A DNA stretch of 54,145 bases from Methylohalomonas lacus (GCF_024808875.1 NZ_JANUCT010000018.1:1-54145), one strand, 5' to 3'. Counted from the stretch's first letter, positions 10,904 to 30,861 are shown. The notes: generated by a model not told the origin, from the sequence alone. Translations and numbers: made by a program.

Positions 10904-12802
10904 TTACGGCAGGCTGAAGACGTTCAGCGTACCGCCGAGACGGGTGTACTTGTCGAGGCCCTTGTAGGCGCCGACCGCACCCAGACCGTCGGTGTCTTTC
11001 TCAAGACCCGCGGCGAAGCCGATACCGGCCCAGCCACCGAGACCGGACAGCACGCCGACATACTGCTTGCCGTCATGCTTCCAGGTATTGGTGTTGCCGA
11101 TAATGCCGGACGGGGTCTTGAATTTCCAAAGCAGCTTGCCGGACTTGTCATCGACTGCCTTCAGGTAGCCGTCCAGCGTGCCGTAGAACACCACGTTACC
11201 GGCGGTGGCCAGGGCGCCGCTCCAGACCGAGAACTGCTCCGGAATGGACCACTTGATCTCGCCCTTGCCAGCATCCCAGGCGATGAAGTTGCCCATGTTG
11301 TTGGTGCCGTCATCTTCAACGGCGCCGGCCGGGAACATCGTCAGGATGGCGTTCACGTAGGGCTGACCCGCGGTGTATTCACTACCGCCGGCGGCGTAGC
11401 TGACCGGCTCGTAGTTCATGCAGACATGGTTGGTTGGCACGTAGAACAGCTTGGTCTTCTCGGAGAAGGCTGCCGGCTGGAAGTCCTTGGAACCGAGTGC
11501 GGCCGGGCAGACATTCTTGGAGTTGGTGTCCTCGCCCTGTTGCCGCGTGCTGTAACGCTCGTCGACCACCGGACGGCCGGTCTTCATGTCGACCTTCTTG
11601 GCCCAGTTGACGGCCGGGTCGAACTTCTCGGCAACCAGCAGTTCACCGGTCTTACGATCCAGCGTATAGCCGAAGCCGTTGCGGTCGAAGTGGACCAGGA
11701 CCTTGCGCTCCTTACCCTTGACCTTGATATCGGCCAGGATATTTTCATTGACGCCGTCGTAGTCCCATTCGTCGTGCGGGGTCATCTGGTAGAACCACTT
11801 GGCCATGCCGGTGTCCAGGTCGCGGGCCATTAGGGTCATGGACCACTTGTTATCACCGGGACGGACCACCGGATTCCAGGTGCTCGGGTTACCGGTGCCG
11901 TAGTAGACCAGGTTCAGCTCCTTGTCATAGGAGTACCAGCCCCAGGTTGTGCCACCGCCGGTCTTCCACTGGTCGGAGGTCTCGGCGCATTCACCGCCCT
12001 CGTTCCAGGACCAGTTGTCATCGGTATTGCCAGCGCACCAGGAGTTCAGCGAGGAATTCTTGCCGATCGGCTCACCCATGTGGGTAGTCTTTTTGGGATC
12101 GACCAGCATTTCATCGTCCGGGCCGGTGCTGTAAGCCTTCCAGGCCTGAGAACCGTCCTCGATGTTGTAGGCAACGAGGAAACCGCGGACGCCGAACTCA
12201 CCGCCGGAAATGCCGGTGATGACCTTGTCACCGAACACGTGCGGAGCGTTGGTGTTGGTCTCGCCCTTTTCCGGGTCGCCGTTCATGACTGACCATTCCT
12301 CTTCACCGTTGGCTGCATCCAGGGCCACCAGCTTGGTGTTGGCCTGCTGCAGGAAGATCTTGCCATTACCATAGGCCAGGCCCCGGTTGACCGTGTCACA
12401 GCACATCACCGGTACGACGGTGTCGTAGTCCTGCTGCGGGGCGTATTCCCAGACGATCTCCAGGTTATCCAGGTTGATGGCAAAGACGTTGTTCGGGAAC
12501 GGGGCATGGATATACAGCGTGTCATGATCCAGACCGGTCGCCGAACCCGGCAGTACCAGCGGTCCACCCTCGTGACCGCGCAGAACGCCGGTCGAGAAGG
12601 TCCAGGCTGACTGCAGCTTGCTGGCATTCTTGGTGTTGATCTGGTCCAGTTCGGAATAACGATGGTTTTTATAATCGCCCGTGGGTGCGGCCCAGTAATT
12701 CGGGTCGTCCATCAGCTTTTCCAGCTCGGCGTTGGCCATAACTGGACTGCTGACTGCCAGTCCCAGCGCGGCAACGATGCCGGATACACTAAGCTTGTTC
12801 AT
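10904..12802 (-). CDS. xoxF: PQQ-dependent methanol/alcohol dehydrogenase, lanthanide-type XoxF
   Basis: This 632-residue periplasmic quinoprotein oxidises methanol or other short alcohols and passes electrons to a cytochrome c. A signal peptide ends after VMA (about residue 23). The eight-bladed propeller shows the adjacent cysteine pair that stacks on PQQ (Cys134-Cys135 in PVMCCDTV), and metal ligands Glu202 (GGEFGVRG) and Asn305 (GTGNPSTWN). The active-site stretch [12 protein letters not shown] holds catalytic Asp347 plus an additional Asp349. That second Asp, Ala in calcium-type MxaF, is the accepted marker of lanthanide-dependent XoxF/ExaF enzymes. AGGAGGAGAG precedes the ATG. No cytochrome (xoxG), binding protein (xoxJ) or PQQ synthesis gene lies in this window. 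Ethanol-type enzymes of the ExaF group remain an alternative. Confidence 0.93.
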
Positions 12803-14308: not shown

Positions 14309-14920
14309 CTAGCGCGGTGTGTGCTGACCGTCTTCGCGGGTGATCCAGCCCGTGAGGGTGTTCTTCATGGCGGAATCCACGGGCATATCAACAGGCGTCA
14401 GCCAGTCGTTGGGTAAAAATAATGTGAACCCGCCGACCTGGTAGCTCATCGGTATATAAACCACGCAACGCCCCTCTTTTTCGATCTCTGCCGGCATATC
14501 ATCCATGTCTTCGCGCATGACAAAGCCGATGATATCGAATTCGTAGCCCGGAAACCGTACCAGCACGACCTTGCTGGCGGCACGCTCGTCGGACGGTGCC
14601 AGAAAGTTGGCAAGTTCCTTCAGAGCGTTGTACAGGCTATTGACGATCGGGATGTTGCGAAACGGCAATTCGATGATCGAGTAAATGCGCTGGGCGAACT
14701 GGCTCGACATGAGCAGGCCGAGCAGAAACAGCGTCACGATGCCCAGCGCCATGCCGGTGCCGGGAATGTACTCGTACATCGGGATGAACGGCTTGAGCAG
14801 ATTCTGCGCGATGCGATCGGTCCAGGAGAAGAAGTAATATAACGGATATATGGTCAGCACCAGTGGCAGCAAGGTCAGAATGCCGCGGAGCAGGTAGTTG
14901 GTAAACTTTTTCATGGTCAT
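14309..14920 (-). CDS. DUF502 family inner-membrane protein
   Basis: About 203 residues from ATG 14920. Two transmembrane segments are clear (YLLRGILTLLPLVLTIYPLYYF and MALGIVTLFLLGLLMSS), followed by a conserved soluble domain with FRNIPIVNSLYNALKEL and VRFPGYEFDIIGFVM, the usual DUF502 landmarks. Longer upstream starts would run into the preceding gene in another frame, and MTMKKFTNYLLRG matches the usual family N-terminus. It is the last gene of the leftward amidoligase operon, 31 bases after the amidotransferase stop. No function is established for the family. Confidence 0.85.
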   Translation of the reverse strand: MTMKKFTNYLLRGILTLLPLVLTIYPLYYFFSWTDRIAQNLLKPFIPMYEYIPGTGMALGIVTLFLLGLLMSSQFAQRIYSIIELPFRNIPIVNSLYNALKELANFLAPSDERAASKVVLVRFPGYEFDIIGFVMREDMDDMPAEIEKEGRCVVYIPMSYQVGGFTLFLPNDWLTPVDMPVDSAMKNTLTGWITREDGQHTPR

Positions 14921-14951
14921 GCTGGCGCCCCAGGGTTGATTAGCCGGTATG

Positions 14952-15755
14952 TTATTGAGTCTCCCCCTGATACTGGTCGCTGGCGCGGACCAGTTCCCTG
15001 AATAACCGTTGTTGTCTGGCATGGTGTGGCAGGTATTCCGGGTGCCACTGTACGCCGATCACGTAGCTGCCGCGATTTGTCTCGATGGCCTGAATGATGC
15101 CGTTGGTTTCGCGTGCCGATACCCGTAGCGCCTTACCCAGCGTCTTGATCGACTGGTTATGCAGCGCGTTCACGCGGCAGCGCGATGTTTGCAGAACAGC
15201 GTGCAAGCGGCTGTCCGTGTCTATATCAATGGTCTTGCAGGGCAGTATCGACCAGCTCGGTGCGGATTCCGTGTAAAAGCCACTGATATTCTGGTGCAGG
15301 CTGCCACGCAGGTAGACGTTCAGCAACTGCGCGCCCCGGCAGATGCCGAGCACCGGCCGGTTTCCTTCTATGGCCCTGGCGAGTAGTTCGTATTCCAGCG
15401 TATCGCGTGCCTGGTCGATGCCGCTGTAGCGCTTGGTGCTGAACAGCCAGCGGGCCAGGAACAGCAGCGGGTAGACAGCAGCGGCCAGCAGCCAGTTCAG
15501 GAACGAACGTTCGCGTTGCGGGTGCGGCCAGCCCAGTGCTTCATCATACAGCTCCGGGTCGACATCGGCGCCGCCGCCGATGATAAGGCCATCGAATTCT
15601 TCCGGCCGGTCGGGCAGCGCCGCGGTCACCCGTCGGGCCCGGCCACCGGCGCGGCGTACCGCCAGCCAGGTGAACAGCCAGGCCAGCTGGCCGCCGCGCT
15701 CCGGGCCGCTGACCACGATCAGTGGCCGGTGCCTAGAGGTCACTGATGATCGCAT
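14952..15755 (-). CDS. Gamma-glutamyl-type class I amidotransferase (peptidase C26/PuuD-like) with hydrophobic insert
   Basis: About 267 residues from ATG 15755. C26 hydrolases cut gamma-glutamyl amide bonds with a Cys-His-Glu triad. Here Cys139 is in LGICRGAQLLN, and His and Glu in QWHPEYLP. GGGADVDPELY and GSLHQNI are typical of the family. Between these landmarks is an insertion of about 35-40 residues whose core, FLNWLLAAAVYPLLFLARW (around residues 85-103), is strongly hydrophobic, absent from PuuD, and could be a membrane anchor. The start overlaps the amidoligase stop by 23 bases. GTG 15743 is an alternative start, and anything longer is out-of-frame amidoligase sequence. Pairing with an amidoligase suggests it removes or supplies the amide that enzyme forms. 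Confidence 0.85.
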   Translation of the reverse strand: MRSSVTSRHRPLIVVSGPERGGQLAWLFTWLAVRRAGGRARRVTAALPDRPEEFDGLIIGGGADVDPELYDEALGWPHPQRERSFLNWLLAAAVYPLLFLARWLFSTKRYSGIDQARDTLEYELLARAIEGNRPVLGICRGAQLLNVYLRGSLHQNISGFYTESAPSWSILPCKTIDIDTDSRLHAVLQTSRCRVNALHNQSIKTLGKALRVSARETNGIIQAIETNRGSYVIGVQWHPEYLPHHARQQRLFRELVRASDQYQGETQ

Positions 15756-16734
15756 CGACCTGCTCGGGCCAGTCGCCGCGCAGTTGCGTAAACCAGGAGC
15801 CGCGGTAGCGGCGATAGGCTTGCATGAGTTCTTCCAGCAGCGCTGCATTCGCGGCCAGCTTTTCCACCCGCACCCAGGTATTCCACTCGTCAGCCACGCG
15901 CCAGTCCGGGTCACCGATCAGGCAGTTGGGCAGGCGGTAGTGAAACGCTGGCCGTGGCTTGATGAGTGCCGGCTCCTTTACCTTGGTCAGCAGGCGGTCG
16001 CCCTCGAGAGCGACCAGTGCCGGCAGCATGTCGAGGGCATGATTGCGCGACGGTACCAGGCGGACGTAATCGTCGGCCAGTTGTGAGCGGTTCGGCGCAT
16101 AGTCGACCTGCATGATCAGGTCGATATAGTCATCCGGATAGCGGTTGATGTAGGGACCGACGCGGCGCGACCAGTCAATTTTCGAATGCCTGCAGATCCA
16201 GTCGTACAGCAGACAGTAGGCGCGCAGATGCGCGAGTAGCGATGTCGCGCCGGTGTCCGGCAGTTCCGGGTTGAGATGGACGCCGAAGCCGTAAAGCACG
16301 GATTCGCGCGTGCCGCGCGCTTCGGCCTTGACCAGTTCGGCCCGGATGTCATCAATCACATGCATGTCGCTCAATGCCAGCGGCGGTGTGACAATTTCGT
16401 GCGGTACCATGATGGTGGCCACCGAGCGCAGCAGTTTTTCCAGCGGCGCGCGCAGGTCGAGCTGATCGAGATCGATGCCGGTGCGGTCCAGGTATTTTTC
16501 GTATTCCTGTTCGTGCAGCAGGCTGGCGTCGATCTCGACGCTGAACCGGCCATAGGCACTGTCACGGATCTCGTAATGAAACGGGTTGCACTTTTCCAGC
16601 GTGCCGCCGGCGAGGCGGTGGACGATATCGGCCGAGGCGTCGATATCGACGCCGGCGTACTCGATCTCGTAACCGACACGGCGTTCATGACCATCACTGC
16701 CGTAGCGCACCGGTGGCATGATGAATTCAGTCAT
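15733..16734 (-). CDS. Putative amidoligase (glutamine-synthetase-like COOH-NH2 ligase)
   Basis: 333 residues from ATG 16734. The N-terminal VGYEIEYAGVD (Glu23, Glu25) is the diagnostic metal-binding strand of the amidoligase family. The SVEIDASL strand, VTPPL and the VHLNPELP histidine-containing motif complete the expected GS-like active site. Family members are predicted to join a carboxylate to an amine using ATP. Products are unknown for most. Its ATG overlaps the stop of the upstream VTT gene (ATGA at 16731-16734), and its own end overlaps the C26 gene, so the three are translationally coupled. The peptide-like or polyamine substrate is not deducible. Confidence 0.85.
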   Translation of the reverse strand: MTEFIMPPVRYGSDGHERRVGYEIEYAGVDIDASADIVHRLAGGTLEKCNPFHYEIRDSAYGRFSVEIDASLLHEQEYEKYLDRTGIDLDQLDLRAPLEKLLRSVATIMVPHEIVTPPLALSDMHVIDDIRAELVKAEARGTRESVLYGFGVHLNPELPDTGATSLLAHLRAYCLLYDWICRHSKIDWSRRVGPYINRYPDDYIDLIMQVDYAPNRSQLADDYVRLVPSRNHALDMLPALVALEGDRLLTKVKEPALIKPRPAFHYRLPNCLIGDPDWRVADEWNTWVRVEKLAANAALLEELMQAYRRYRGSWFTQLRGDWPEQVDAIISDL

Positions 16735-17432
16735 TGCCTGAGTCCCTTGTTTGCGAGCTCGCGCCGTGCCCGACGGCCCACCAGCCAACACGCCAGCAGC
16801 GTGAATAATAAACCAGCGCCGTATAGTAGCAGATGCAGATAAGGCGACGGTGACGCAGTCGTCTGAAGCTGCGCGGCGGAGGCACCGATGTAACTGAGCA
16901 GCAGTATGAGCGGCGCCTTGCCGAAAAAAGTTGCCAGCGTGTAGTGGTGCAGGGCGATGTCGGTGATGCCACAGAGATAATTGAGCAGGTGCGACGGTAT
17001 CACCGGGCTCAGGCGTAGCAGGAACACGATCAACCAGCCCTGGGCGGCAATGCTGTGCTCGACGGCCATTACTGTGGGATACGGTTGCATGAGTTCGCGG
17101 CAGCTGCGGCTGAGCAGGTGGCGTGACAATAAAAACGCGGCCAGCGCGCCGACGGTAGCGGCGAGCAGTGTGACAACAAAGGCCTGTTGCAGGCCGAACA
17201 GATAGCCGGCGGCGATGGCCAGTGGCGCCAGCGGCACCAGGATCAGTGTGGCAAGCACATAAAACAGCGCGTAAAACAGCGGCGCCAGCGGCCCCAGCTG
17301 TTGCAGAAGCGTGCTGAATGTATCCAGCCAGTCACCGAGCGGCAGGTAATGCCAACCGACGAGGCCGGCAATGACGATCAGGCTGAACAGAAGCAGCCGG
17401 CGCCGGGCGCCGATCAGGGCGGCCTTGAACAC
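16731..17432 (-). CDS. TVP38/TMEM64 (VTT/DedA-like) membrane protein
   Basis: 233 residues starting with a GTG. There are several transmembrane helices, with the VTT landmark region FYVLATLILVPLAPLAIAAG...TVGALAAFLLSR and a later RLSPVIPSHLLNYLCGITDI (FR/RLxPxxP-like re-entrant loop). DedA/VTT proteins are linked to lipid scrambling or undecaprenyl-phosphate recycling and ion homeostasis. The role here is unassigned. It follows the DUF4404 gene by 12 bases and overlaps the amidoligase start by 4 bases, placing a membrane component in this operon. Confidence 0.88.
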   Translation of the reverse strand: MFKAALIGARRRLLLFSLIVIAGLVGWHYLPLGDWLDTFSTLLQQLGPLAPLFYALFYVLATLILVPLAPLAIAAGYLFGLQQAFVVTLLAATVGALAAFLLSRHLLSRSCRELMQPYPTVMAVEHSIAAQGWLIVFLLRLSPVIPSHLLNYLCGITDIALHHYTLATFFGKAPLILLLSYIGASAAQLQTTASPSPYLHLLLYGAGLLFTLLACWLVGRRARRELANKGLRQ

Positions 17433-17444
17433 GACGGGGACGGC

Positions 17445-17708
17445 TTAGATGCCCATATTGCTCAGGGTGACCATGATGTCGTTGAGGATGGCGGTAGCAC
17501 GCGGATGTTCGGCCTCGAAGTGTGAGACCGATTCCTGCAACTGATCGAACAGCCCTTCGTCATCATCGTCCTGGTCTTCGGCCAGTTTCGATTCAACGCG
17601 TTTGATGACTTCATCCAGCCGCGCGCGGCCGGCGGCATCGTCGCTCGGCAGTTTGGCGGCTTCCTCTTTCAGGCGTTCCAGTTCCTGACGCAGTTTGTCT
17701 TCAGACAT
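17445..17708 (-). CDS. DUF4404 family small protein
   Basis: An 87-residue protein with a charged coiled-coil N-terminus (MSEDKLRQELERLKEEAAKL), a very acidic middle (EDQDDDDEGL) and the conserved FEAEHPRATAILNDIMVTLSNMGI tail of DUF4404. ATG 17708 fits the family start. The upstream in-frame extension is not conserved-looking. It is the first gene of the leftward operon with the VTT protein and amidoligase. Confidence 0.85.
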   Translation of the reverse strand: MSEDKLRQELERLKEEAAKLPSDDAAGRARLDEVIKRVESKLAEDQDDDDEGLFDQLQESVSHFEAEHPRATAILNDIMVTLSNMGI

Positions 17709-17840
17709 AATTCCCATCCAGTCGGTGCTTACGATGATATGTTGCCAGTATACGCGAACTGTCGTCACTTGCGCGTGGGTGACCGTTCGCCCGGCAGATG
17801 CTAAGCTAGCTTATTATCTGTTCCTCATGGTGTGATTCGA

Positions 17841-18953
17841 ATGTCGCAACCTGCCGCGACTGCGGAGTGTGGTCTGACCAGCCTTGTCGGCCACTACCAT
17901 CGGCTGGCCGTGCAGTCGCAGCCACTGGTATTGGCCACCGTTGTTGAGACGCTGGGTTCGACCTATCGCAAGGCCGGTGCGCGCATGCTGATCAGCGCGG
18001 ACGGTCGTTTCCACGGCCTCATCGGCGGCGGCTGTTTCGAGGGCGATCTCTACGAACAGACCCAGGCGGTGTTCGCCGACGGTCAGCCGCGCCTGCTGTT
18101 CTATGACATGCGGGCGCCCGAGGATGCACTCTGGGGTCTGGGCCTGGGCTGCAACGGCGCGGTGCGCATTCTCCTGCAACGGCTTGAAGCCACCGGCAGC
18201 GATCCGACGCTGGCGCTGCTGGAACAGACGCTGGCCAGCGACGACAGTCACGTGATCGCCACGGTCTGCGACGGTGCGGACGCCGGGACAAGTGTCGCCG
18301 ACGGCCAGCCGCCGGCGGCAATGGCGGCACAGACCGCGGCCGCCATCCAGGCGGAGACGCGGGCCGTGGCCCTGCTCGGCCAGTCCACGCTGGTGCATCA
18401 CGATAATAATGTCAGCGTGTTCTACGATTATATCCGCCCGGCACCGCGCCTGTTATTGATAGGTGCCGGTGCCGACGCCGCACCGATCGTCAACCTGGCG
18501 CGGCAACTCGACTGGCGCGTGCTGCTGGTCGACCATCGCCCGGCCTATGCCGAACCGGCGCGCTTTCCCGCTGCCGAAGCCGTCGTGCATGCGCGGCCCG
18601 AAACGCTGTTCGACGGCATTGCCAGCCGGCGTATCGATGCCGTCGTGCTGATGACGCACAACATCGACTACGACACGCGCTTTCTGCAACAGCTCGTCAA
18701 CCTGCCGTGCCGCTATCTCGGCCTGCTCGGCCCGCGCGCGCGCCGCGAACAGCTGTTCCGAACGAGCGGACTTGCCGCGACGGACTTCGGCGATCGGCTG
18801 CACGCGCCTATAGGCCTGGATATCGGTGGTGCGGCGCCGGAATCGATCGCGCTGTCACTGGTCAGCGAAATTCACGCGGTGTTGCATGAACGCGATGCCC
18901 GGCCGCTGCGCGACAAGCAGCAGCCCATTCAGAGCCGGGCGCCGGCGAACTGA
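17841..18953 (+). CDS. xdhC: XdhC/CoxI family molybdenum-hydroxylase maturation factor
   Basis: 370 residues. The N-terminal XdhC_CoxI domain has VVETLGSTYRKAGARMLI and GGCFEGDLYEQ with the conserved Cys, and GLGLGCNGAVRILL. The C-terminal half is a Rossmann domain (RLLLIGAGADAAPIV, LLVDHRPAYA, YLGLLGPRARRE). XdhC proteins bind molybdenum cofactor, promote its sulfuration and deliver it to xanthine-oxidase-family enzymes. It begins a rightward cluster with mocA and both hydroxylase subunits, so it should serve them. ATG 17841 was chosen; a GTG 9 bases earlier is possible. Confidence 0.9.
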   Translation: MSQPAATAECGLTSLVGHYHRLAVQSQPLVLATVVETLGSTYRKAGARMLISADGRFHGLIGGGCFEGDLYEQTQAVFADGQPRLLFYDMRAPEDALWGLGLGCNGAVRILLQRLEATGSDPTLALLEQTLASDDSHVIATVCDGADAGTSVADGQPPAAMAAQTAAAIQAETRAVALLGQSTLVHHDNNVSVFYDYIRPAPRLLLIGAGADAAPIVNLARQLDWRVLLVDHRPAYAEPARFPAAEAVVHARPETLFDGIASRRIDAVVLMTHNIDYDTRFLQQLVNLPCRYLGLLGPRARREQLFRTSGLAATDFGDRLHAPIGLDIGGAAPESIALSLVSEIHAVLHERDARPLRDKQQPIQSRAPAN

Positions 18954-18957
18954 GCTC

Positions 18958-19554
18958 ATGGCTGTAACCGGAGAAGAATACGAACTGCATGGGCTGGTGC
19001 TGGCCGCCGGCGGCTCGCAGCGGCTCGGCCAGCCGAAACAGTTGCTGCAGGTCGACGATGAAACGCTGCTGCACCGGGCGTGCCGGCAGGCCCTGGTGGT
19101 GTGTGACGAGGTGACGGTGGTAGTCGGTGCCGCCGCGGCCGAAATCGGTCAGGCCATCAGCGACCTGCCGCTGGGCCGGCTGATCAACCCGGACTGGCAG
19201 AGTGGCATGGCGTCGTCGATCCGCGCCGGTATCACGGCGCTACCGGTGACCGCCGACGGCGTGCTGATCCTGCCCTGCGATCAGCCGGAGCTGACCGCGA
19301 CCGACCTGCAACGACTGGCAGCCAGCTGGCGTGTTCAGTCGGATCGGATCGTCGCTGCCGCCTACGACGGTATTCAGGGCGTACCGGTGATCTGGCCGCG
19401 CGATCGCTTTGCCGATCTGCTGGGCCTGTCCGGCGATCATGGCGCGCGAGAACTGTTAAAAGCCGACGCGGCGCAGGTGGTCAGTGTCGACATGCCGGCC
19501 GCGGCGCTGGATGTCGATACACCGGCCAGCGCCCGGGCGCAGGGACTGTTGTAA
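18958..19554 (+). CDS. mocA: Molybdenum cofactor cytidylyltransferase (MocA-like)
   Basis: 198 residues with the nucleotidyltransferase signature LVLAAGGSQRLGQPKQLLQV, then NPDWQSGMASSIRAG and LPCDQPELTATDL, which are typical of MocA rather than the GTP-using MobA. The product attaches CMP to Mo-molybdopterin, giving the MCD form used by many bacterial hydroxylases. It starts 4 bases after the xdhC stop and precedes the hydroxylase genes, matching the cofactor form expected for them. A longer in-frame start within xdhC was rejected. Confidence 0.92.
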   Translation: MAVTGEEYELHGLVLAAGGSQRLGQPKQLLQVDDETLLHRACRQALVVCDEVTVVVGAAAAEIGQAISDLPLGRLINPDWQSGMASSIRAGITALPVTADGVLILPCDQPELTATDLQRLAASWRVQSDRIVAAAYDGIQGVPVIWPRDRFADLLGLSGDHGARELLKADAAQVVSVDMPAAALDVDTPASARAQGLL

Positions 19555-19604
19555 TACCTGCTGATTATTAATGAATCGTTGAGCTGCAACCAAGGGAAAA
19601 GACC

Positions 19605-20060
19605 ATGGCTAAACTGACTGTGAATGGTAAGGAACACGATATCGACGCCAGCGACGAGACGCCGTTGCTGTGGGCGTTGCGTGACATCGTCGGGCTGACC
19701 GGCACCAAATTCGGCTGCGGCCAGGGACTGTGCGGTGCCTGCACCGTACACGTCGATGGCGAAGTGACGCGTTCCTGCATCACGCCGCTGAAGCAGGCGG
19801 CTGGTAAATCGGTGACCACCATCGAGGGGCTGTCCGAGGACGGTGTAAGTCATCCGTTGCAAAAGGCCTGGGTGGCCGAGGACGTGCCGCAGTGCGGCTA
19901 TTGCCAGTCCGGCCAGATCATGGCCGCCGCCGCGTTCCTCAGGGACAACCCCGAACCCAGCGACCAGGACATCTGGGATGGCATGGCGAATCTCTGTCGC
20001 TGCGGCACCTACCTGCGCATTCACCGCGCCATCAAGCGCGCCGCGCGCAAGGAGGTCTAG
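19605..20060 (+). CDS. 2Fe-2S subunit of a xanthine-oxidase-family aldehyde/isoquinoline oxidoreductase
   Basis: 151 residues with both iron-sulfur clusters of the family: the plant-ferredoxin type ([15 protein letters not shown] plus a distant Cys) and the alpha-helical type ([10 protein letters not shown]...[10 protein letters not shown]). Layout and length match IorA-type small subunits that pair with a single large Mo subunit and no flavin protein. It has no signal peptide and would be carried across the membrane with its Tat-tagged partner. Three bases separate it from the next gene. Confidence 0.93.
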
Positions 20061-20063
20061 GCC

Positions 20064-22241
20064 ATGACAACGATCACGAACATTTCCCTGAGTCGGCGCC
20101 GGTTTCTCGGCGGCAGCGCTGCCAGTGCCGGTGTCTTTATGCTCGGCCTGCATCTGCCGCTGGGCCGCGCCGCCCTGGCTGACGATGTTGACGGCGACAT
20201 GAATGCCTATATCGGCATTGCCGATGACGGTACCGTCACGATCCGCAATCCCTACATCGAGATGGGACAGGGGACGTATACCTCGATCCCGATGCTGATC
20301 GCCGAGGAACTCGATATCGGCATGGACATTATTCGGGTTGAACAGGCACCCCCGGGCGAGGCCTATCGACTGTTGTACGATGGCAGCCGGCGCTTTACCG
20401 GCGGGTCGTTTAGCGTGCGCTCGGCATTCAAGCCGTTGCGCACCGCCGGCGCCACCGCGCGCAAGATGCTCATGAAGGCCGCGGCCGATGAGTGGGGCGT
20501 GCCACTGGCCGAGTGCAGCACCGACAATGGCCGGGTCGTTCATGAACAATCCGGCCGTTCGCTGGGCTACGGCGAACTGGCACCGCTGGCCGCACAGCTG
20601 GAAACACCTGCTGATGTCGAGCTGAAATCCAGCGCTGACTACCGTCTGCTCGGCACACCGGTGGCGCGCACCGACAGCGCGATCAAGTCAAACGGCCAGG
20701 CGCAGTTCGGCATCGACGTGCGGGTCGACGGCATGGTCTACGCGGCGGTCAAGCAGTCGCCGGTATTCGGCGGCAAGGTGAAAAGCGTCGATGCCGCAGC
20801 GGTGCGCGATAAACCGGGCGTGATCGCGGTCGATGAGATACCGAATGGTGTCGCCGTGATCGCGCAGACTTACTGGCAGGCGCAGCAGGCGCTGGCTGAA
20901 TTGCCGGTTGAATTCGATACCAGCGAAACGGACAGCGCCGGTTTTTCCAGCGACGCCTACCGCGACGAACTCGATCAGCATCTCGACGACAGCGGCGTTG
21001 CCGCCGAGGACAGCGGCGATGCACCGGCAGCCCTGGCCGCCGCGGCGCGGACGATCAGTGCCGACTATCATGCGCCATTTCTTGCCCATGCCACACTCGA
21101 ACCGATGAACTGCACCGCGCTGGTGGAAGAGGGTCATTGCACGGTATGGGCACCGAACCAGGGCGTTGACAGTGTCGTCATGGCCGCAACCGAGGTGACC
21201 GGTCTCGACGCCGATCGGATTACGGTACATACACCGTATCTCGGCGGCGGTTTCGGCCGGCGCTTCATCATGGACTACACGGTTCAGGCAGTGACGCTGG
21301 CAAACAGGCGCAAGGGGACGCCGATCCAGGTCATCTGGACGCGCGAGGAAGACACCCAGCACGACTTTTACCGACCGCTGATCGCGGCGCGTTATCGCGC
21401 CGGCTTTGACGATGACAACCAGCCGGTCTCGCTGCACACCACCACCGCCGGCGACGGCCCCATACGGCGGCACATGTCCAGTCCGGACGAGGAAATGAAA
21501 GTCGATCCATCCGTGATGGAAGGTGTCATGCACCAGCCCTACGCCATCGCCAACAAGCGTGCCGACTATGTCTACCGGCCGGTGGCCGCGCCGATCGGTT
21601 TCTGGCGCTCGGTCGGTCATTCGATGAATGCGTTTTTCACCGAATCATTTATCGATGAAATGGCGCATGCCGCCGAGCAGGACCCGATCGAGTTTCGTCG
21701 CTCGATGTTGAACGAAGAGCCGCGCTTCAGGAAGGTGCTCGATACCGCCGTGCAGATGGCGGGCTGGAAAGGGCAGGCCTGGGATGCCGATGACGGTCGC
21801 AAGCATGCCATGGGCGTGGCTTTGCACCAGTCGTTCAACAGCATCGTCGCCGAGGTCGCCGAAGTGTCGATCAGCGACATCGACGAGATCCAGGTGCACA
21901 AGGTCTGGTGCGCGGTCGACTGCGGCTTTGCCGTCAATCCGCGCATAGTCACCATGCAGATGGAAAGCGGCATTGCATTCGGCCTGTCGGCGGCCCTGCT
22001 TGAGCAGATCACGGTTAGCGACGGCAAGGTCGAGCAGGCCAATTTCGACAGCTATCCGTTCCTGCCGCCGCAGCGCATGCCTGAAGTCGAGGTCGAGATC
22101 GTCAACAGCGGTGCTGATCTTGGCGGTATCGGTGAACCCGGCACGCCGCCGATTGCGCCAGCGGTGGCGAATGGCTTGTTTGCCCTCACCGGCAAGCGCC
22201 TGCGTGATCTGCCGCTCCGGGCCGACGAGGTAACTGCTTGA
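20064..22241 (+). CDS. Molybdopterin-binding subunit, Tat-exported (IorB/aldehyde dehydrogenase-like)
   Basis: 725 residues. The N-terminus bears a twin-arginine signal (SLSRRRFLGGSAASAGVFML), so the folded complex is predicted to be periplasmic. Family landmarks include NPYIEMGQGTYTSIPM, LGGGFGRRF and the C-terminal GGIGEPGTPPIAPAVANGLF with the catalytic Glu next to the molybdenum. The substrate could be an aldehyde or an N-heterocycle, and sequence alone does not decide. Electrons probably go to a cytochrome c, but none is encoded next to it. It ends the xdhC-mocA-small-large cluster. Confidence 0.92.
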   Translation: MTTITNISLSRRRFLGGSAASAGVFMLGLHLPLGRAALADDVDGDMNAYIGIADDGTVTIRNPYIEMGQGTYTSIPMLIAEELDIGMDIIRVEQAPPGEAYRLLYDGSRRFTGGSFSVRSAFKPLRTAGATARKMLMKAAADEWGVPLAECSTDNGRVVHEQSGRSLGYGELAPLAAQLETPADVELKSSADYRLLGTPVARTDSAIKSNGQAQFGIDVRVDGMVYAAVKQSPVFGGKVKSVDAAAVRDKPGVIAVDEIPNGVAVIAQTYWQAQQALAELPVEFDTSETDSAGFSSDAYRDELDQHLDDSGVAAEDSGDAPAALAAAARTISADYHAPFLAHATLEPMNCTALVEEGHCTVWAPNQGVDSVVMAATEVTGLDADRITVHTPYLGGGFGRRFIMDYTVQAVTLANRRKGTPIQVIWTREEDTQHDFYRPLIAARYRAGFDDDNQPVSLHTTTAGDGPIRRHMSSPDEEMKVDPSVMEGVMHQPYAIANKRADYVYRPVAAPIGFWRSVGHSMNAFFTESFIDEMAHAAEQDPIEFRRSMLNEEPRFRKVLDTAVQMAGWKGQAWDADDGRKHAMGVALHQSFNSIVAEVAEVSISDIDEIQVHKVWCAVDCGFAVNPRIVTMQMESGIAFGLSAALLEQITVSDGKVEQANFDSYPFLPPQRMPEVEVEIVNSGADLGGIGEPGTPPIAPAVANGLFALTGKRLRDLPLRADEVTA

Positions 22242-22388
22242 AATAAAAGATCATAAAGCCCGATGGTGACAGATGTCACCTTCAGGAGTATTTCCCTGTC
22301 TTTGCATCTGTGGAACCGCCACATACGTAGGCGCTCCAACAGATTGCAGTCAATAGCCACGCAAGCATAACCAAAGGATAAATTTCTC

Positions 22389-22955
22389 ATGTTGTTTCGT
22401 AATATTGTAATCGCCCTGGGTGCCCTGTTCAGTCCGCTGGCCATGGCCACGGATGTCGAGACCGTTGCCGTGCTCGACACGGAACTGATCATCGATAACA
22501 AGCCCACTCCCCATTCGCCGGACCGCCCCGGCGAAATCGAACGCGGCCGTTACATGACCGAACACATCCGCAAGGCGCTGGATGCGTCCGATGCCTATGA
22601 ACTGGTCAGCCTGGATGCGGCCAGGGAAATTGTCGAGGACAAGGCGAGCTCTGTTAAATACATCCACCAGTGCCAGCCTTGTGTTCGCAAGATCGGCCAG
22701 GCGCTGGAGGTTGACTACGTTGCTACCGTCTGGGTGCAGGTGGTCAGCAACCTGATCATCAATTTCAATTTCGTATTGCGCGATGGTGAAACCGGTGAGG
22801 TTGTAAAAACAAGTTTTATCGATATCCGCGGCAACAACAACCGCAGCTGGCGCACCGGCACCAATTACCTGCTGAAGAAGCACTTCAACGAGTATTTCGA
22901 CACGGTACCGGAGCAGGCACTGGAAGACGCGATGACGGTCTGGCCGGAGTCGTAA
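22389..22955 (+). CDS. DUF3280/DUF2380-type exported protein
   Basis: 188 residues with a signal peptide (MLFRNIVIALGALFSPLAMA) and the family pattern TVAVLDTELI, then GRYMTEHIRKALDASDAYELV and VDYVATVWVQVVSNLIINFNFVLRD, ending with an IDIRGNNNRSWRTG block. CQPC in the middle may be a redox or structural cysteine pair. No function is known. It is separated by 147 bases from the molybdenum-hydroxylase large subunit and followed 7 bases later by the DUF3047 gene. Confidence 0.8.
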   Translation: MLFRNIVIALGALFSPLAMATDVETVAVLDTELIIDNKPTPHSPDRPGEIERGRYMTEHIRKALDASDAYELVSLDAAREIVEDKASSVKYIHQCQPCVRKIGQALEVDYVATVWVQVVSNLIINFNFVLRDGETGEVVKTSFIDIRGNNNRSWRTGTNYLLKKHFNEYFDTVPEQALEDAMTVWPES

Positions 22956-22962
22956 TCGCATC

Positions 22963-23604
22963 ATGAAAACACTGGCTGCCATCGTCCTGCTGATACCGTC
23001 GCTTGTTGCAGCCGAGACGGTCAGTGTCGGTGATTTTGCAGAGCATGGCCTTGCAGGCTGGCAAAGCCAGTCGTTCGCGGGAGAAACCGACTACCAGCTG
23101 GTGGAAGCCGGCGGCCGGCGCGTGCTCAAGGCGGATAGCCGCGGTACGGCCTCCGGTCTGTATCACGAGAAAAGCATCGATCTCGGTGCCACGCCATGGC
23201 TGCACTGGCGCTGGAAAGTGCAGGACACGCTCGAGGATGTGGATGAAACCACCCGGGACGGCGACGACTACCCGGCACGCGTATACGTCGTTTTTTCCGG
23301 CGGTCTGGCATTCTGGCGCACACATACGGTTATCTATGTATGGGCCAGTAACCAGCCACAGGGCAGCCACTGGGCCAATGCGTTTACCGATAATGCCCGG
23401 GTGATTGCCGTGCAGAGTGGGGATGCCAATGCCGGTGAGTGGCAGCGCGAGACACGCAACGTGCGCGCGGATTACGAGATGTTGTTCGGCGAGGATATCA
23501 GCGAGGCTGATGCGGTCGCCATCATGACCGATACCGACAATAGTGATCAGTCAGCTGTAGCCTGGTACGACGATCTCTATTTCAGTGGTCGTTCAGAACC
23601 CTAG
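22963..23604 (+). CDS. DUF3047 exported protein
   Basis: 213 residues with a signal peptide (MKTLAAIVLLIPSLVAAE) and a beta-sandwich-like mature part showing the DUF3047 landmarks LHWRWKV, DDYPARVYVVFSG, and a C-terminal AVAIMTDTDNSDQSAVAWYDDLYF. The fold resembles carbohydrate-binding-type sandwiches, but no ligand is known. It probably shares a transcript with the DUF3280 gene just upstream, and converges with rlmKL about 60 bases later. Confidence 0.82.
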   Translation: MKTLAAIVLLIPSLVAAETVSVGDFAEHGLAGWQSQSFAGETDYQLVEAGGRRVLKADSRGTASGLYHEKSIDLGATPWLHWRWKVQDTLEDVDETTRDGDDYPARVYVVFSGGLAFWRTHTVIYVWASNQPQGSHWANAFTDNARVIAVQSGDANAGEWQRETRNVRADYEMLFGEDISEADAVAIMTDTDNSDQSAVAWYDDLYFSGRSEP

Positions 23605-23665
23605 TTTCAGTCTGTTCCCGTTTTTCTCTCTGGAAACGCTGCCGCAACGATCCGCGGACATCGTG

Positions 23666-25780
23666 TTACGCTGAATGGCTGATGCGGAAGCACTTGTGAA
23701 TGCGCGGGTTGCGGGCAAAATCCTCGGGTATGGTTTGCTGGCTGATGTCCTCGATGTGGTATTGCGCCAGGCCCGCCTGATCGATCCGGAACTGGCGCAG
23801 GTTGGTGGAGAACAACAGCTCACCCTGTGCGGCCAGCAGGTTCATGCAGCCATGGATTAGATGGACATGGTCACGTTGGACATCGAGACTGCCCTGCATG
23901 CGTTTCGAGCGTGAGAAGGTTGGCGGATCCAGAAAGATAAGGTCAAACTGCCGTTGCCTGTTGTCACGCAGCCACTGCAGCACGTCGGCCTGGACGTATT
24001 CGTGCCGGCGATCCGCGAGTTCGTTGAGCAGCAGGTTGCGTTGCGCCCAGTCCAGATAGGTCTTCGACATATCCACCGTCACCGATGACGGCGCGCCACC
24101 GCGCACCGCGCAGACCGTGGCGGTGCCGGTATAGGCAAACAGGTTCAGAAAGCGGCGACCTTGCGCCCGTTGCTGGATGTAGCGACGCACCGGCCGGTGA
24201 TCGAGGAACAGGCCGGTATCCAGATAGTCGCTGAAATTCACTAGGAAGCGGTTGCCGGTTTCGCTGACGATGTGCTGGTGGCCGCCGGCGGCAAGCTTTT
24301 CATACTGTGTGCCGCCGCGTTGCCGGCGCCGCTGCTTGAAATAGACAGCGTCGCTGCCGACCTCCAGTAATTCCATGATCACTGCAAGTGCGGCGTTCAA
24401 ACGTGCCTGGGCCTTGCGTTCATCGACGCTGGCGGGTGCCTCGAATTCCTGCAGGTGCACGTGGCGTCGGTCGCCGTCGTAGATGTCGATCGCCAGGTTG
24501 TATTCCGGCAGGTCGGCGTCATAGACCCGGTAGCAATCGATGCCCTCGTGCCGGGCCCAGCGTCCAAGGCGCTTGATGTTTTTGCGCAGGCGGTTACTGA
24601 AATCGGCCGCTACCGTTGTCACTGCTACCGATTGTTCGGCGATCTCACAATGCAGCAGCTTGCATTTGAGCGCACCGTTATAAAGCGTGTGCGACTTGTG
24701 GGCGCGCATGCCGAGAAACGGTGCCAGTTGTGGTTCGCCGGTCAGAATGGCGGCCGACCAGCCGGCATAGCAGCGTTTCAGCATCAGACCGAGACTGCGG
24801 TATAGCACCGGCAATGCGGCGATGTCGCCAAGCCGTTCGCCGTAGGGCGGATTGGTGACCAGCAGCCCGTCGCTGGCCGCCGCCGGTTGATTCTCCTCGA
24901 GCGCGCAGCGGGCGAATTCGATATGTTGATCGAGTCCGGCGCGACCGGCATTGGCGCGGGCAATCCGGATCATGTCGGCACTGATGTCGTGGCCCTGCAT
25001 CGGCATCAAACGCCGTAGGCCGGCGTCGCGGCGCTGCCGGGCCTCATCGATCAGCGACTGCCAGATCGCCGCGTCATACTGGCGCCAGCCATGCAGACCG
25101 TAGCGTTCACACAGCAGGCCGGGTGCAATGTCGGCCGCCATAAGGGCACCCTCGATCAACAAGGTACCGGAACCGCACATCGGGTCGTGCAGGCTGCCGC
25201 CGCGTTCGGCAACGGTCGGCCAGCCGGCGCGCAGTAGTATGGCGGCGGCCAGGTTTTCCTTTAGCGGCGCCTGGCCCTGTTCGCTGCGATAACCGCGCCG
25301 GTGCAGACTGTGACCGGACAGATCGATGCTGACGCTGGCGTTATCGGCATGCAGGTAGATGTTGATGCGCACGTCCGGGTTATCGGTATCGACCGTTGGC
25401 CTTGTACCCCGACCCTGACGCAATTGGTCGACAATCGCATCCTTGACCTTCTGGGCACCGAACTGCGTGTTCGTGATGGCATTGTTCTGGCCGAGAAAGT
25501 CGACGGCGATGGTGGCGTTGTCGCCGATATGAGCCTGCCAGTCGAGCGACTGGATACTGCTATAAAGGCTGTCGGCGTCAATGGCGGCAACATCGCCGAG
25601 CTGCAGTAGCACGCGACTGGCCAGGCGTGACCACAGGCAAACCCGGTAGGCCACTGCCATATCTGCATTGAAGCCGACACCGGCACGTGCCGAGTGAACA
25701 TCGGTGGCGCCGAGTTCAGTCAGCTCGTTGGCCAGTAGATCCTCGATGCCTAGTGCGGCGGTGGCGAAAAATTTGGGCAT
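23666..25780 (-). CDS. rlmL: Bifunctional 23S rRNA methyltransferase RlmKL
   Basis: 704 residues. It contains a THUMP domain near the N-terminus (TELGATDVHSARAGVGF onward), the RlmL methyltransferase with GGSLHDPMCGSGTLLIE and TNPPYGERLG (m2G2445), and the C-terminal RlmK methyltransferase with FLNLFAYTGTATV and LDPPTFSRSKRM (m7G2069). ATG 25780 (MPKFFATAALGIEDLLANEL) matches the usual start. A 121-residue upstream extension is not family-like. It is divergent from yqeC, with about 113 bases between the starts. Confidence 0.94.
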   Translation of the reverse strand: MPKFFATAALGIEDLLANELTELGATDVHSARAGVGFNADMAVAYRVCLWSRLASRVLLQLGDVAAIDADSLYSSIQSLDWQAHIGDNATIAVDFLGQNNAITNTQFGAQKVKDAIVDQLRQGRGTRPTVDTDNPDVRINIYLHADNASVSIDLSGHSLHRRGYRSEQGQAPLKENLAAAILLRAGWPTVAERGGSLHDPMCGSGTLLIEGALMAADIAPGLLCERYGLHGWRQYDAAIWQSLIDEARQRRDAGLRRLMPMQGHDISADMIRIARANAGRAGLDQHIEFARCALEENQPAAASDGLLVTNPPYGERLGDIAALPVLYRSLGLMLKRCYAGWSAAILTGEPQLAPFLGMRAHKSHTLYNGALKCKLLHCEIAEQSVAVTTVAADFSNRLRKNIKRLGRWARHEGIDCYRVYDADLPEYNLAIDIYDGDRRHVHLQEFEAPASVDERKAQARLNAALAVIMELLEVGSDAVYFKQRRRQRGGTQYEKLAAGGHQHIVSETGNRFLVNFSDYLDTGLFLDHRPVRRYIQQRAQGRRFLNLFAYTGTATVCAVRGGAPSSVTVDMSKTYLDWAQRNLLLNELADRRHEYVQADVLQWLRDNRQRQFDLIFLDPPTFSRSKRMQGSLDVQRDHVHLIHGCMNLLAAQGELLFSTNLRQFRIDQAGLAQYHIEDISQQTIPEDFARNPRIHKCFRISHSA

Positions 25781-25893
25781 GTAAATCGGGCTGTAGGTGC
25801 GGTTGAGTCTGTTGACGGACGATGATGTTATCATGAAGTTACCCGCCGTATGTAAGCGGACGGCGATAACAGTCATCTTTTGAAGATAGTCGA

Positions 25894-26646
25894 ATGACCA
25901 ATGAACTGCTGAATATATTCCGGGCTGAGCAGGGCATCGTTTGCTGTGTCGGCGCCGGCGGCAAGAAGACGACAATGTTCCGGCTGGCGCGTGAACATGC
26001 CGGCCGCGTTGGTCTGACCACCAGCGCGCATATTGAATATTTCCCGCGCAACCTGTCAGCCTGTTGTTATGTCGCTGAGGAGACAGAATTACTGCAGTCA
26101 CTGCGTGACGATAATGACTCGCGAGTGATCGCGTTTGCCACACCGTCGCAGCGTACGGGCCGGCATGCCGGTATCGCCCCCGAGCGGATCGACGCGTTCT
26201 ATCGTGGCGGTCGCTTTGATCTGCTGTTGGTCAAGTCGGATGGTGCGCGCAGTCGCCTGATCAAGGCGCCCAATGATAATGAACCGCCCCTGCCGGAGCA
26301 TGCTGATACCGTGATCCCGGTCGTGTCCGCGCGTGTGATCGGCCGCCGTCTGAACGAGAAGATCGCCCACCGGCCGGAACGCATCGCCACCATTAGCGGT
26401 GCGGCGATAGGCGACAGTCTGCAGCCGGAACACCTGGCGCGCCTGCTCGCCGCGCCGGAAGGCGCGTTGAAAAACACCGGTCAGGCGAGCGTCGTGCCGC
26501 TGATTAACATGGTGGACGATACCGAGCGCACCGAACTGGCCCGCGCGGCCGCCGAGCAGGCACTGGCGCTAACGCATCGCTTCGACTACGTGGTGCTGGC
26601 GACGATGCGCGCCGAGCAGCCGATCGTCGATATCGTCCGGCGCTAG
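25894..26646 (+). CDS. yqeC: YqeC-like selenium-dependent hydroxylase accessory protein
   Basis: 250 residues with a P-loop-like VGAGGKKTTMFRLAREH, then VGLTTSAHI, LLLVKSDGARSRLIKAPNDNEPPLP and the VVSARVIGRRLNEKIAHRPE segment, all characteristic of YqeC. In other bacteria this protein accompanies molybdenum hydroxylases with a labile selenium cofactor. The xdhC-mocA-hydroxylase cluster lies 4 kb upstream on the same strand, which makes a functional link likely although the genes are not contiguous. No yqeB or selD is in the window. Only a weak ribosome-binding site (GAAGATAG) precedes the ATG. Confidence 0.85.
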   Translation: MTNELLNIFRAEQGIVCCVGAGGKKTTMFRLAREHAGRVGLTTSAHIEYFPRNLSACCYVAEETELLQSLRDDNDSRVIAFATPSQRTGRHAGIAPERIDAFYRGGRFDLLLVKSDGARSRLIKAPNDNEPPLPEHADTVIPVVSARVIGRRLNEKIAHRPERIATISGAAIGDSLQPEHLARLLAAPEGALKNTGQASVVPLINMVDDTERTELARAAAEQALALTHRFDYVVLATMRAEQPIVDIVRR

Positions 26647-26650
26647 ATCC

Positions 26651-28213
<1,563 letters not shown>

Positions 28214-28455
28214 GTTCGAAACTCTCGGCGGGACTTAAGCCATGATGAAATTGATAAACGGACCACAAATTGTACCTGAACAGGCTGATCGGCACCCGTC
28301 CATGCGCCCGATGGTAGCAGGCCAGGCCGGGTTTATGTGGTAATCTGCTGCTAATTAGGACTGCATTAAGTTTACAGGATGGTCGTGCACTTGGTGCAGG
28401 GGGGGCAGCTGTCTGAACTGCCATACCGGGCATTCTCCTGAAGCGGGAGGTCAAT

Positions 28456-30861
28456 CTGGATACTGCGATAGATAGCGCCGGCGTCCCGGACAATTTCTGG
28501 TCCTCGCAACGGGTCGCGTTGATCAGCTTTATCGCCATTGTCGGTCTGGCGGGCTGCGGCCTGGCCTTTACCATTTTCGCCCTTGACGTCCAGTCGGCGG
28601 CGCGTGCCTATGTGACCGGCAATGGCTATTGGTCCAAAGCCCATATCCAGGCCAATTATCACCTCACCCGCTACAGCTATACCGGGGATCCGAGGGCACT
28701 GCAGCAAGCGCGTGAAGCACTCGCCGTTCCGCTGGGCGATCGCCGTGGCCGGCTGGCGCTGGACAAAAATCCCCCGGACCTGGAAGCAGCCCGCGAGGGG
28801 TTTCTGGCCGGCGGCAACCATCCTGACGATGTTGCCGGGATCATCTGGATGTATCGCTACTTTGCCGATGAACTGTTCTTTGCGGAAGCGGTCGCCATCT
28901 GGCGCGAGGCGGACCAATACATCCTGGCCATGGATACAATTGCGGACGATCTGGAAACAGCCTTTAATAATGGCGATGTGAACGCAGACAAGGTTCGTGA
29001 GCTGCGCCGGCAACTCGTCGAGCTTAACCAGAAACTGCGACCGCTGGATGCTGCCTTTGCCAAAACGCTGGCCGATGGGACCCGCTGGCTGAACGAATTT
29101 CTGGTCGCCGTCAGTGTCATCATGCTCATCGTGATCGTGTTCGGCGCAGCGCTGATCTTTCGCTGGGCAAAGCGCAGCATCGCCAGTTCCGAAAGTAAAT
29201 TCCGGGCTACTTTCAGGCATGCAGCTGTCGGCATGGCGCAGTTGCAACCCGATGAGCATTTCCTCGACATCAATGAAAGCCTGTGCCGGATATTGCAGCG
29301 TTCACGCGCAGACTTGCTGCAAACCGACCTGAACGAGATCACCTTTCCACCGGATCGCGCTAATGACGAGACAAATTTCCGTGCCCTGATGCAGGCCACG
29401 ATAGAAAGCTATGCTGTTGAAAAGCGCTTGCTGCGTGCGGACGATACGCCGGTATGGTGCAAGCTGACGCTGTCACGAGTCAGCGATTACATGGATATGC
29501 CCCGTTATTTGATTGCGGTCGTCGAGGATGTTTCCGAAGCACATCGCCTTTCATCCGAACTCAGCTATCAGGCAACACATGACGCGTTAACCGGCATTAT
29601 CAATCGTATCGAGTTTGAAACACGCTTGCAGGACGCTATCCATGATTCGGTCGACAAATACAACCGGCATACGCTTTGTTTCATAGACCTGGATCAGTTC
29701 AAGATTGTTAACGATACTTGCGGTCACGGTGCTGGCGATGCACTACTCTGTCAGGTAGTCGAAATTCTGAGCCAACAGCTCAGGCGCGGTGATGTGCTCG
29801 CCAGGCTGGGTGGCGATGAGTTTGGCATTATCTTTATCGAGTGTGATATCAATGCCGCGCGTCCGGTCGCGGAAAAACTGCGCAATGCATTGTCAAGTTT
29901 CAGTTTTATCTGGGAAGGTGCGACATTCAATATAACGGTCAGTATGGGCCTGGTCGAAATCAACTCGGTTACCAATGACGCCGGCACATTGCTGAAATCT
30001 GCCGACACAGCCTGTTATTCTGCCAAGGATCAGGGCCGAAATCAGGTGCATGTCTATAGTGAACATGACCTGGTTCTCGTCGCACGCCGTAACGAGATGG
30101 AATGGGTCAACCGCATCCGCGATGCGGTCAATAACGACCGGCTGCAACTCTTTGCCCAGGAAATACAGTCGCTGAGCCAAGCCGGCGTCAAACGCTGTGA
30201 AGTTCTGGTCAGGTTGATCGACACGGATGGTAAGTTAATCATGCCCGATACGTTCCTGCCGGCAGCGGAACGCTACAATATTGTCACACTGATTGACCGC
30301 TGGGTGGTCAATATGGCTCTAAAAACCATGCAGGCGCACCCGGAATGGATCGGACGAATCGAAGCCTTGCATGTCAACCTGTCCGGCCAGTCGATCTCGC
30401 GTGACGAGTTTTTGCGCTATATTGAAGAGCTGCTGGATCATTACGATGTGCCGGCTGCCAAACTCTGCTTTGAAATAACCGAAACAGCTGCCGTTTCCAG
30501 CCTGGTTGAAGCCCGCCAGTTCATGGAAGCCTTGAAGCGACGCGGGTGCCAGTTCGCGTTGGATGATTTTGGCAGCGGATTGTCATCGTTTGGCTATCTG
30601 CGTTCGTTGCCGGTCGACATGGTCAAGATCGATGGCAGCTTTGTGCGCAATATGAACGAGGATGAAGTGCACCTGGCCATGGTGCGCTCAATCATTGAGA
30701 TCGGCCAGATCATGAACAAATTAACCGTGGCAGAGTTTGTGGATTCCGAACAGAAACTTGCGCGCCTGAAAGAGTTGGGCGTGAATTACGCCCAGGGCTA
30801 CGCAATACACCGATCCTGTGACCTGGATGAACTGATCAACCGGACCGCCGCTGACACGTAG
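28456..30861 (+). CDS. Membrane c-di-GMP protein: periplasmic sensor, PAS, GGDEF, EAL
   Basis: Two transmembrane segments (VALISFIAIVGLAGCGLAFTIF and LVAVSVIMLIVIVFGAALIF) bracket a roughly 150-residue helical periplasmic sensor. A PAS domain (SKFRATFRHAAVGMAQ onward), an intact GGDEF diguanylate cyclase (ARLGGDEFGII) and a C-terminal EAL phosphodiesterase follow. The EAL motif is altered: EVL at the EAL position, and AEFVD where active enzymes have AEGVE, though ETE and DDFG remain, so phosphodiesterase activity is doubtful. No ATG, GTG or TTG lies upstream of TTG 28519 in frame. CTG 28456 is preferred because GGGAGGT sits 5 bases before it and it adds the N-terminal charge before the first helix. 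TTG 28519 is the fallback. Confidence 0.85.
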   Translation: MDTAIDSAGVPDNFWSSQRVALISFIAIVGLAGCGLAFTIFALDVQSAARAYVTGNGYWSKAHIQANYHLTRYSYTGDPRALQQAREALAVPLGDRRGRLALDKNPPDLEAAREGFLAGGNHPDDVAGIIWMYRYFADELFFAEAVAIWREADQYILAMDTIADDLETAFNNGDVNADKVRELRRQLVELNQKLRPLDAAFAKTLADGTRWLNEFLVAVSVIMLIVIVFGAALIFRWAKRSIASSESKFRATFRHAAVGMAQLQPDEHFLDINESLCRILQRSRADLLQTDLNEITFPPDRANDETNFRALMQATIESYAVEKRLLRADDTPVWCKLTLSRVSDYMDMPRYLIAVVEDVSEAHRLSSELSYQATHDALTGIINRIEFETRLQDAIHDSVDKYNRHTLCFIDLDQFKIVNDTCGHGAGDALLCQVVEILSQQLRRGDVLARLGGDEFGIIFIECDINAARPVAEKLRNALSSFSFIWEGATFNITVSMGLVEINSVTNDAGTLLKSADTACYSAKDQGRNQVHVYSEHDLVLVARRNEMEWVNRIRDAVNNDRLQLFAQEIQSLSQAGVKRCEVLVRLIDTDGKLIMPDTFLPAAERYNIVTLIDRWVVNMALKTMQAHPEWIGRIEALHVNLSGQSISRDEFLRYIEELLDHYDVPAAKLCFEITETAAVSSLVEARQFMEALKRRGCQFALDDFGSGLSSFGYLRSLPVDMVKIDGSFVRNMNEDEVHLAMVRSIIEIGQIMNKLTVAEFVDSEQKLARLKELGVNYAQGYAIHRSCDLDELINRTAADT

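Follow-up and report, generated by a model that had tools for sequence, protein, structure and literature searches.

The glutamine-synthetase-like amidoligase superfamily was reportedly surveyed by Iyer et al. in 2009 (cited in PMC10945688). Combinations of an Amidoligase_2 protein with a C26/class-I GATase protein use the same ligase family as the locus described here, and the same pair is annotated by NCBI on alphaproteobacterial plasmids of Qingshengfaniella and Dinoroseobacter, under the names 'amidoligase family protein' and 'gamma-glutamyl-gamma-aminobutyrate hydrolase family protein'. As compared to these known pairs, the window (the whole stretch of 54,145 nucleotides of Methylohalomonas lacus DNA that was analysed) adds a DedA gene and a hydrophobic insert in the C26 protein, neither of which is noted in the text consulted; it is a new context for known families and not a new kind of system.

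The PuuA/PuuD gamma-glutamyl-putrescine pathway likewise joins a glutamine-synthetase-fold ligase to a C26 hydrolase, and the model of the window C26 protein matches PuuD and SpuA. However, the window ligase matches PF12224 only and is not of the GlnA type, and PuuB/PuuC-like oxidation genes are missing from the directon, none of the five genes being an oxidase or aldehyde dehydrogenase by Pfam, which places the locus outside this pathway. The MurT/GatD unit of peptidoglycan amidation, the substrate of which is lipid-linked (PMC3267633), shares with the window pair its two-gene make-up, a GATase-like partner and ATP-dependent amide formation, the last being predicted for the window. The fold of the window ligase is nevertheless unrelated and its GATase-like family different; Pfam finds neither a Mur-ligase domain nor a CobB/CobQ-type GATase in the window proteins, so that membership in this system is also rejected.

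Among DedA proteins, those of COG0398 are putative phospholipid scramblases. Those of COG1238 (YqaA) are common among Gram-negative bacteria, and several Pseudomonas species depend on them for viability; they have no known function, and a role in moving lipids that are uncharged or carry a positive charge has been proposed (PMC10127716). The text of that paper makes no mention of amidoligase.

Organization of the gene cluster

ORF calling places five genes in a tight leftward array on the minus strand, between positions 14309 and 17708 of the window. The features are as follows:

17445..17708, minus strand: DUF4404 protein of 87 aa, whose gene opens the directon (Pfam PF14357, 73 bits)
16731..17432, minus strand: VTT/DedA membrane protein of 233 aa, COG0398 (YdjX/TVP38) type (Pfam PF09335, 97 bits; phmmer to YdjX)
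15733..16734, minus strand: Amidoligase_2 protein of 333 aa, predicted glutamine-synthetase-fold ATP-dependent ligase (PF12224, 190.8 bits, cut-off 22)
14952..15755, minus strand: predicted Peptidase C26 / class-I amidotransferase-like hydrolase of 267 aa, counted from ATG 15755 (PF07722, 140.6 bits)
15441..15503, minus strand: hydrophobic helix-break-helix segment of the C26 protein, residues 85-105; clade-specific insert and probable monotopic membrane anchor
14309..14920, minus strand: DUF502 membrane protein of 203 aa (Pfam PF04367, 88 bits)

All five proteins score above the Pfam cut-offs (DUF4404 73, VTT 97, Amidoligase_2 191, Peptidase_C26 141 and DUF502 88 bits). A spacing of 12 bp separates the DUF4404 and VTT genes, and the VTT stop (16731-16733) shares a 4-bp ATGA overlap with the amidoligase ATG (16734-16732). 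The C26 gene starts within the 3' end of the amidoligase gene (stop at 15733-15735), at ATG 15755 or GTG 15743, giving an overlap of ∼23 or ∼11 bp depending on the start chosen. The most likely start of DUF502 is ATG 14920, ∼31 bp after C26; a start at 15022 would instead give a longer ORF, with 71 bp of overlap with C26. The directon is bounded by a divergent XdhC gene (17832, plus strand) and a convergent ferritin-like gene (ending at 14301, plus strand). A terminator scan of the minus strand detected no terminator-like site between the five genes, the four minus-strand sites listed being all within the VTT coding region. The five genes are likely carried on a single transcript, a view of the operon that is based on the gene spacing. 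The ORFs, the Pfam matches and the ATGA junction thereby bear out the five packed leftward genes, with overlaps at VTT/amidoligase and amidoligase/C26, of the original prediction.

Divergently from the directon, positions 17832-22241 (plus strand) encode an XdhC-like maturation factor, a molybdenum-cofactor cytidylyltransferase-like protein and two subunits of a molybdopterin oxidoreductase of the aldehyde/xanthine type. A gene for a dehydrogenase of the PQQ-dependent methanol/ethanol family (681.9 bits against a cut-off of 480) lies at 10904-12802 on the minus strand.

Ligase and hydrolase

The AF2 model of the amidoligase (pLDDT 80.5) gave no significant match with Foldseek alone. VIA-align aligned it to glutamine synthetases with Z of 10-12 (best ∼12), followed by glutamate-cysteine ligase, YbdK and Dop/PafA, the further Z values being 10.4 for plant GCL, 9.5 for 1tt4, 9 for Dop and 8.3 for YbdK. 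The ExE, HxNxE and RPxxHYR ligase motifs are kept in 87-92 of 93 amidoligase rows. The profile score, together with a glutamine-synthetase fold carrying conserved motifs, assigns the protein to Amidoligase_2, and it is predicted to be an ATP-dependent amide ligase.

The C26 protein scores 141 bits with PF07722 and 51 bits with the GATase profile PF00117. Its catalytic triad is intact in the alignment, with Cys139 and His238 invariant and Glu240 nearly invariant; profile and Cys-His-Glu triad together make it a member of Peptidase C26. The motifs GxCRG, Q[WF]HPE and the C26-type N[AS]LHxQ occur in 88, 87 and 77 of 88 rows, respectively. Since the closest matches, both by sequence and by Foldseek of the model, are Lin1909, PuuD and SpuA, and since the triad is intact, amide hydrolysis is favoured over ammonia supply as the role of the protein, and the amides hydrolysed are probably gamma-glutamyl.

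By the number of residues that separate the GG.D motif from the catalytic ICRG, the C26 proteins fall into two length classes, of ∼44 and of 77-81. The longer class carries an insert of 33-37 extra residues with a conserved hydrophobic stretch such as LLTLLLFPLIWLLRRLLST; the corresponding segment of the window protein, residues 85-105, is FLNWLLAAAVYPLLFLARWLF. The insert is confined to a single clade, which comprises 50 amidoligase rows (support 100/96) and in which the window and L002 are a sister pair. Assignments of the insert from length to four other loci (L124, L125, L165 and L168) proved false on sequence inspection. The 'membrane-inserted' feature attributed earlier to the amidotransferase is hence a real hydrophobic insert, which extends over the clade.

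The peak 19-residue KD hydropathy of the insert set, computed with the window excluded, is 0.64-2.21 (median 1.35) as compared to a median of 0.33 for proteins without the insert, and that of the window C26 protein is 1.58; in many members the value is below that of a clear transmembrane helix. The AlphaFold model shows, in a low-confidence region, a helix at 85-93, a break at V94-P96 and a helix at 95-105. The insert may be pictured as an anchor that is shallow or re-entrant, and not as a helix that crosses the membrane.

Distribution of the pair

Of the 93 distinct amidoligase loci of gamma- and alphaproteobacteria left after removal of duplicates, 88 have a C26 gene directly downstream in the same orientation, the two genes overlapping or nearly so across loci. 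For this reason the amidoligase-C26 pair of the original prediction is a real, widespread module, already known as a pairing. No assigned product for the pair was found in the literature searched; within that literature the earlier description as undescribed holds for the product, but the pairing is visible in public annotation.

The window genome is the only member of its order in the genome set sampled. PF12224 was found in 19 of 369 genomes drawn from its class and 24 of 398 drawn from its phylum, and in 43 of 47 and 22 of 54 genomes of two orders (those of G222 and G072, respectively). Amidoligase_2 genes without an adjacent C26 at three loci (L047, L173 and L174) form a separate clade, possibly a ligase-only branch, and amidoligase relatives without C26 are present in soil Azospirillum and Microvirga. 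No amidoligase match was obtained among 50,697 phage records searched for a phage origin, and a defence role was rejected, PADLOC giving no usable match and two chance-level matches, to DUF4404 only.

No amine or lipid enzyme was seen to recur around the pair; sulfur/methionine genes do so in two gamma lineages. The methionine synthase gene metH is downstream of C26 on the same strand in nine loci (L037, L103-L108, L111 and L112), and related lineages repeatedly have genes for O-acetylhomoserine sulfhydrylase, CysQ and MsrA in the vicinity of the pair. A link of the pair to sulfur metabolism is possible; shared synteny may be the alternative explanation.

DedA neighbour

Of 49 pair-bearing genomes, 7 (the window genome G000 with G025, G195, G201, G213, G241 and G760) have a VTT/DedA gene directly adjoining the pair in the same orientation, against 0.06 expected, as does one further locus outside this set, that of a MAG (L002). 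Besides the window, the linked loci are L002, L031, L038, L040, L041, L042 and L156, and Pfam confirms the VTT domain in L002, L031, L040, L041, L042 and L156. The contig of L002, the nearest relative, ends upstream of the amidoligase. In G246 a broken VTT remnant is present, and in G255 and G351 the VTT gene is two genes away from the pair; a DedA neighbour is absent from ∼50 of the 61 pair loci that have long flanks. Most YqaA-linked amidoligases fall within one clade of the amidoligase tree. As several linked loci are close on this tree, the number of independent link events is estimated at about 3-4; for at least 3 independent events the Poisson P is ∼4e-5.

In phmmer comparison with the DedA proteins of E. 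coli, the window VTT protein matched YdjX (1.3e-19) and YdjZ (3.5e-9), the values for YghB and YqaA being 0.46 and 0.11. It shows no match to YghB (COG0586) and a borderline match or none to YqaA-type proteins (COG1238), and its best similarity, among the E. coli DedA proteins compared, to YdjX/YdjZ places it in COG0398. The VTT proteins of the window and of L156 (in G760, a distant genome) are COG0398-like, whereas the other linked VTT proteins are COG1238-like. Identity with the UndP flippase UptA (COG0586) was rejected, the UptA model scoring 18.1 bits against a cut-off of 250, with no YghB match; linked DedA proteins of either type are outside the UndP-flippase subfamily. Neither the window genome nor G760 has a YqaA match, but a tighter definition of YqaA leaves many genomes without one, and a substitution of COG0398 for the absent YqaA is therefore only suggestive.

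DUF4404 and DUF502

VTT, DUF502 and DUF4404 were searched in the 49 pair-bearing genomes, and long flanks were scanned at the 61 pair loci. The five-gene order was not found in any other genome examined. DUF4404 is present in 4 of the 49 genomes and beside the pair only in the window genome; it is a lineage-specific rider. DUF502 occurs in 40 of the 49, in the cluster of the pair only in the window genome, where it is the second copy, the other and better-scoring copy being on contig C17. In G041 (L032) a single DUF502 gene is ∼5.6 kb from the pair with three other ORFs between, the first of which looks AspRS-sized. Conservation of the five genes is rejected, DUF502 and DUF4404 being outside the cluster of the pair in the other genomes examined; they are probably co-transcribed local companions. 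The five-gene system of the original prediction, the gene order of which is unique to this genome, fails in this co-occurrence check, and a narrower amidoligase-C26-DedA grouping, in which the VTT neighbour recurs, holds. The membrane link proposed with it survives in the DedA neighbour, far above chance, and the clade-wide C26 insert, and is lost for DUF502, the tie of which is absent elsewhere.

The neighbourhoods of second-type DUF502 genes (L141-L155) showed no shared partner tied to the pair. One of them (L141, contig C74 of G145, 16000-30000) holds YqaA-type DedA, PsiE-family and DUF502 genes together, the pair being on a different contig. The literature searched contained no functional paper on DUF502 or DUF4404.

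Proposed role of the pair

The gene identities, conserved catalytic motifs, conserved pairing, recurrent DedA neighbour and clade-wide insert are seen in the sequences; that the two enzymes ligate and hydrolyse, that they are specific for gamma-glutamyl bonds, that the hydrolase is anchored in the membrane and that the substrate is a lipid are inferences. Our leading, still tentative, interpretation is that an amide ligase and an amide hydrolase with PuuA/PuuD-like chemistry act together with a DedA lipid transporter at the inner membrane. At the expense of ATP, the glutamine-synthetase-fold amidoligase would join an amine substrate in an amide bond, most likely a gamma-glutamyl one; the C26 hydrolase, presumably produced together with it from the overlapping genes, would later cleave such an amide, as in the chemistry of PuuA and PuuD. 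In this lineage the helix-break-helix segment would probably hold the hydrolase on the cytoplasmic side of the inner membrane. The adjoining DedA protein, of COG0398 in the window and of COG1238/YqaA at most of the other linked loci, belongs to a family of proven or putative lipid flippases/scramblases. Because of the hydrolase anchor and the DedA neighbour, the substrate or product would probably be a lipid headgroup or membrane-associated amine, moved between leaflets by DedA.

A synthetase-glutaminase complex, in which the amidoligase would use ammonia released by C26 from glutamine to amidate the carboxylate of a membrane or lipid-linked substrate, as MurT/GatD does on lipid II, is rather unlikely. 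It would account for the tight pairing and overlap in 88 of the 93 loci, as in synthetase-GATase pairs, for the match of C26 to the class-I GATase profile and for the DedA neighbours; however, the C26 profile fits far better than the GATase one, N[AS]LHxQ is retained in 77 of 88 rows, the closest solved relatives include the gamma-glutamyl hydrolases PuuD and SpuA, and the MurT/GatD-type domains are absent.

A soluble gamma-glutamylation of a small amine, polyamine or sulfur metabolite, to which the DedA neighbour is incidental, we consider unlikely. The adjacency of DedA proteins of two different subfamilies, far above chance, and the membrane-type insert retained over the whole clade argue against it, although PuuA/PuuD, GlnA3 and GlnA4 offer precedents (PMC5403932, PMC6529630), most pair loci are without DedA, and two gamma lineages have metH, O-acetylhomoserine sulfhydrylase, cysQ and msrA close to the pair. 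That halophiles or haloalkaliphiles make an amidated compatible solute with the pair is highly improbable: the named hosts include marine and saline-soil Rhodobacterales, and one order, the salt-loving nature of which is a guess, carries the ligase in 43 of its 47 genomes, but the membrane insert and the DedA link would be left unexplained, and relatives without C26 live in soil (Azospirillum and Microvirga).

Within the favoured reading of an amide ligase and hydrolase at the inner membrane, a more specific version appears doubtful: a lipid-headgroup amidation cycle, in which the ligase would add and the anchored hydrolase remove an aminolipid-linked amino acid, and DedA would flip the lipid. 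If true, it would provide the first candidate substrate class for COG1238 DedA proteins. That enzymes predicted to ligate and to hydrolyse recur as its operon partner is a testable clue to the cargo of COG1238.

Another DedA gene is found beside an amide ligase gene in E. coli MG1655 (L184, 2814883-2816940), where yqaA (COG1238) adjoins gshA on the same strand; the glutamate-cysteine ligase encoded by gshA is a member of the glutamine-synthetase superfamily.
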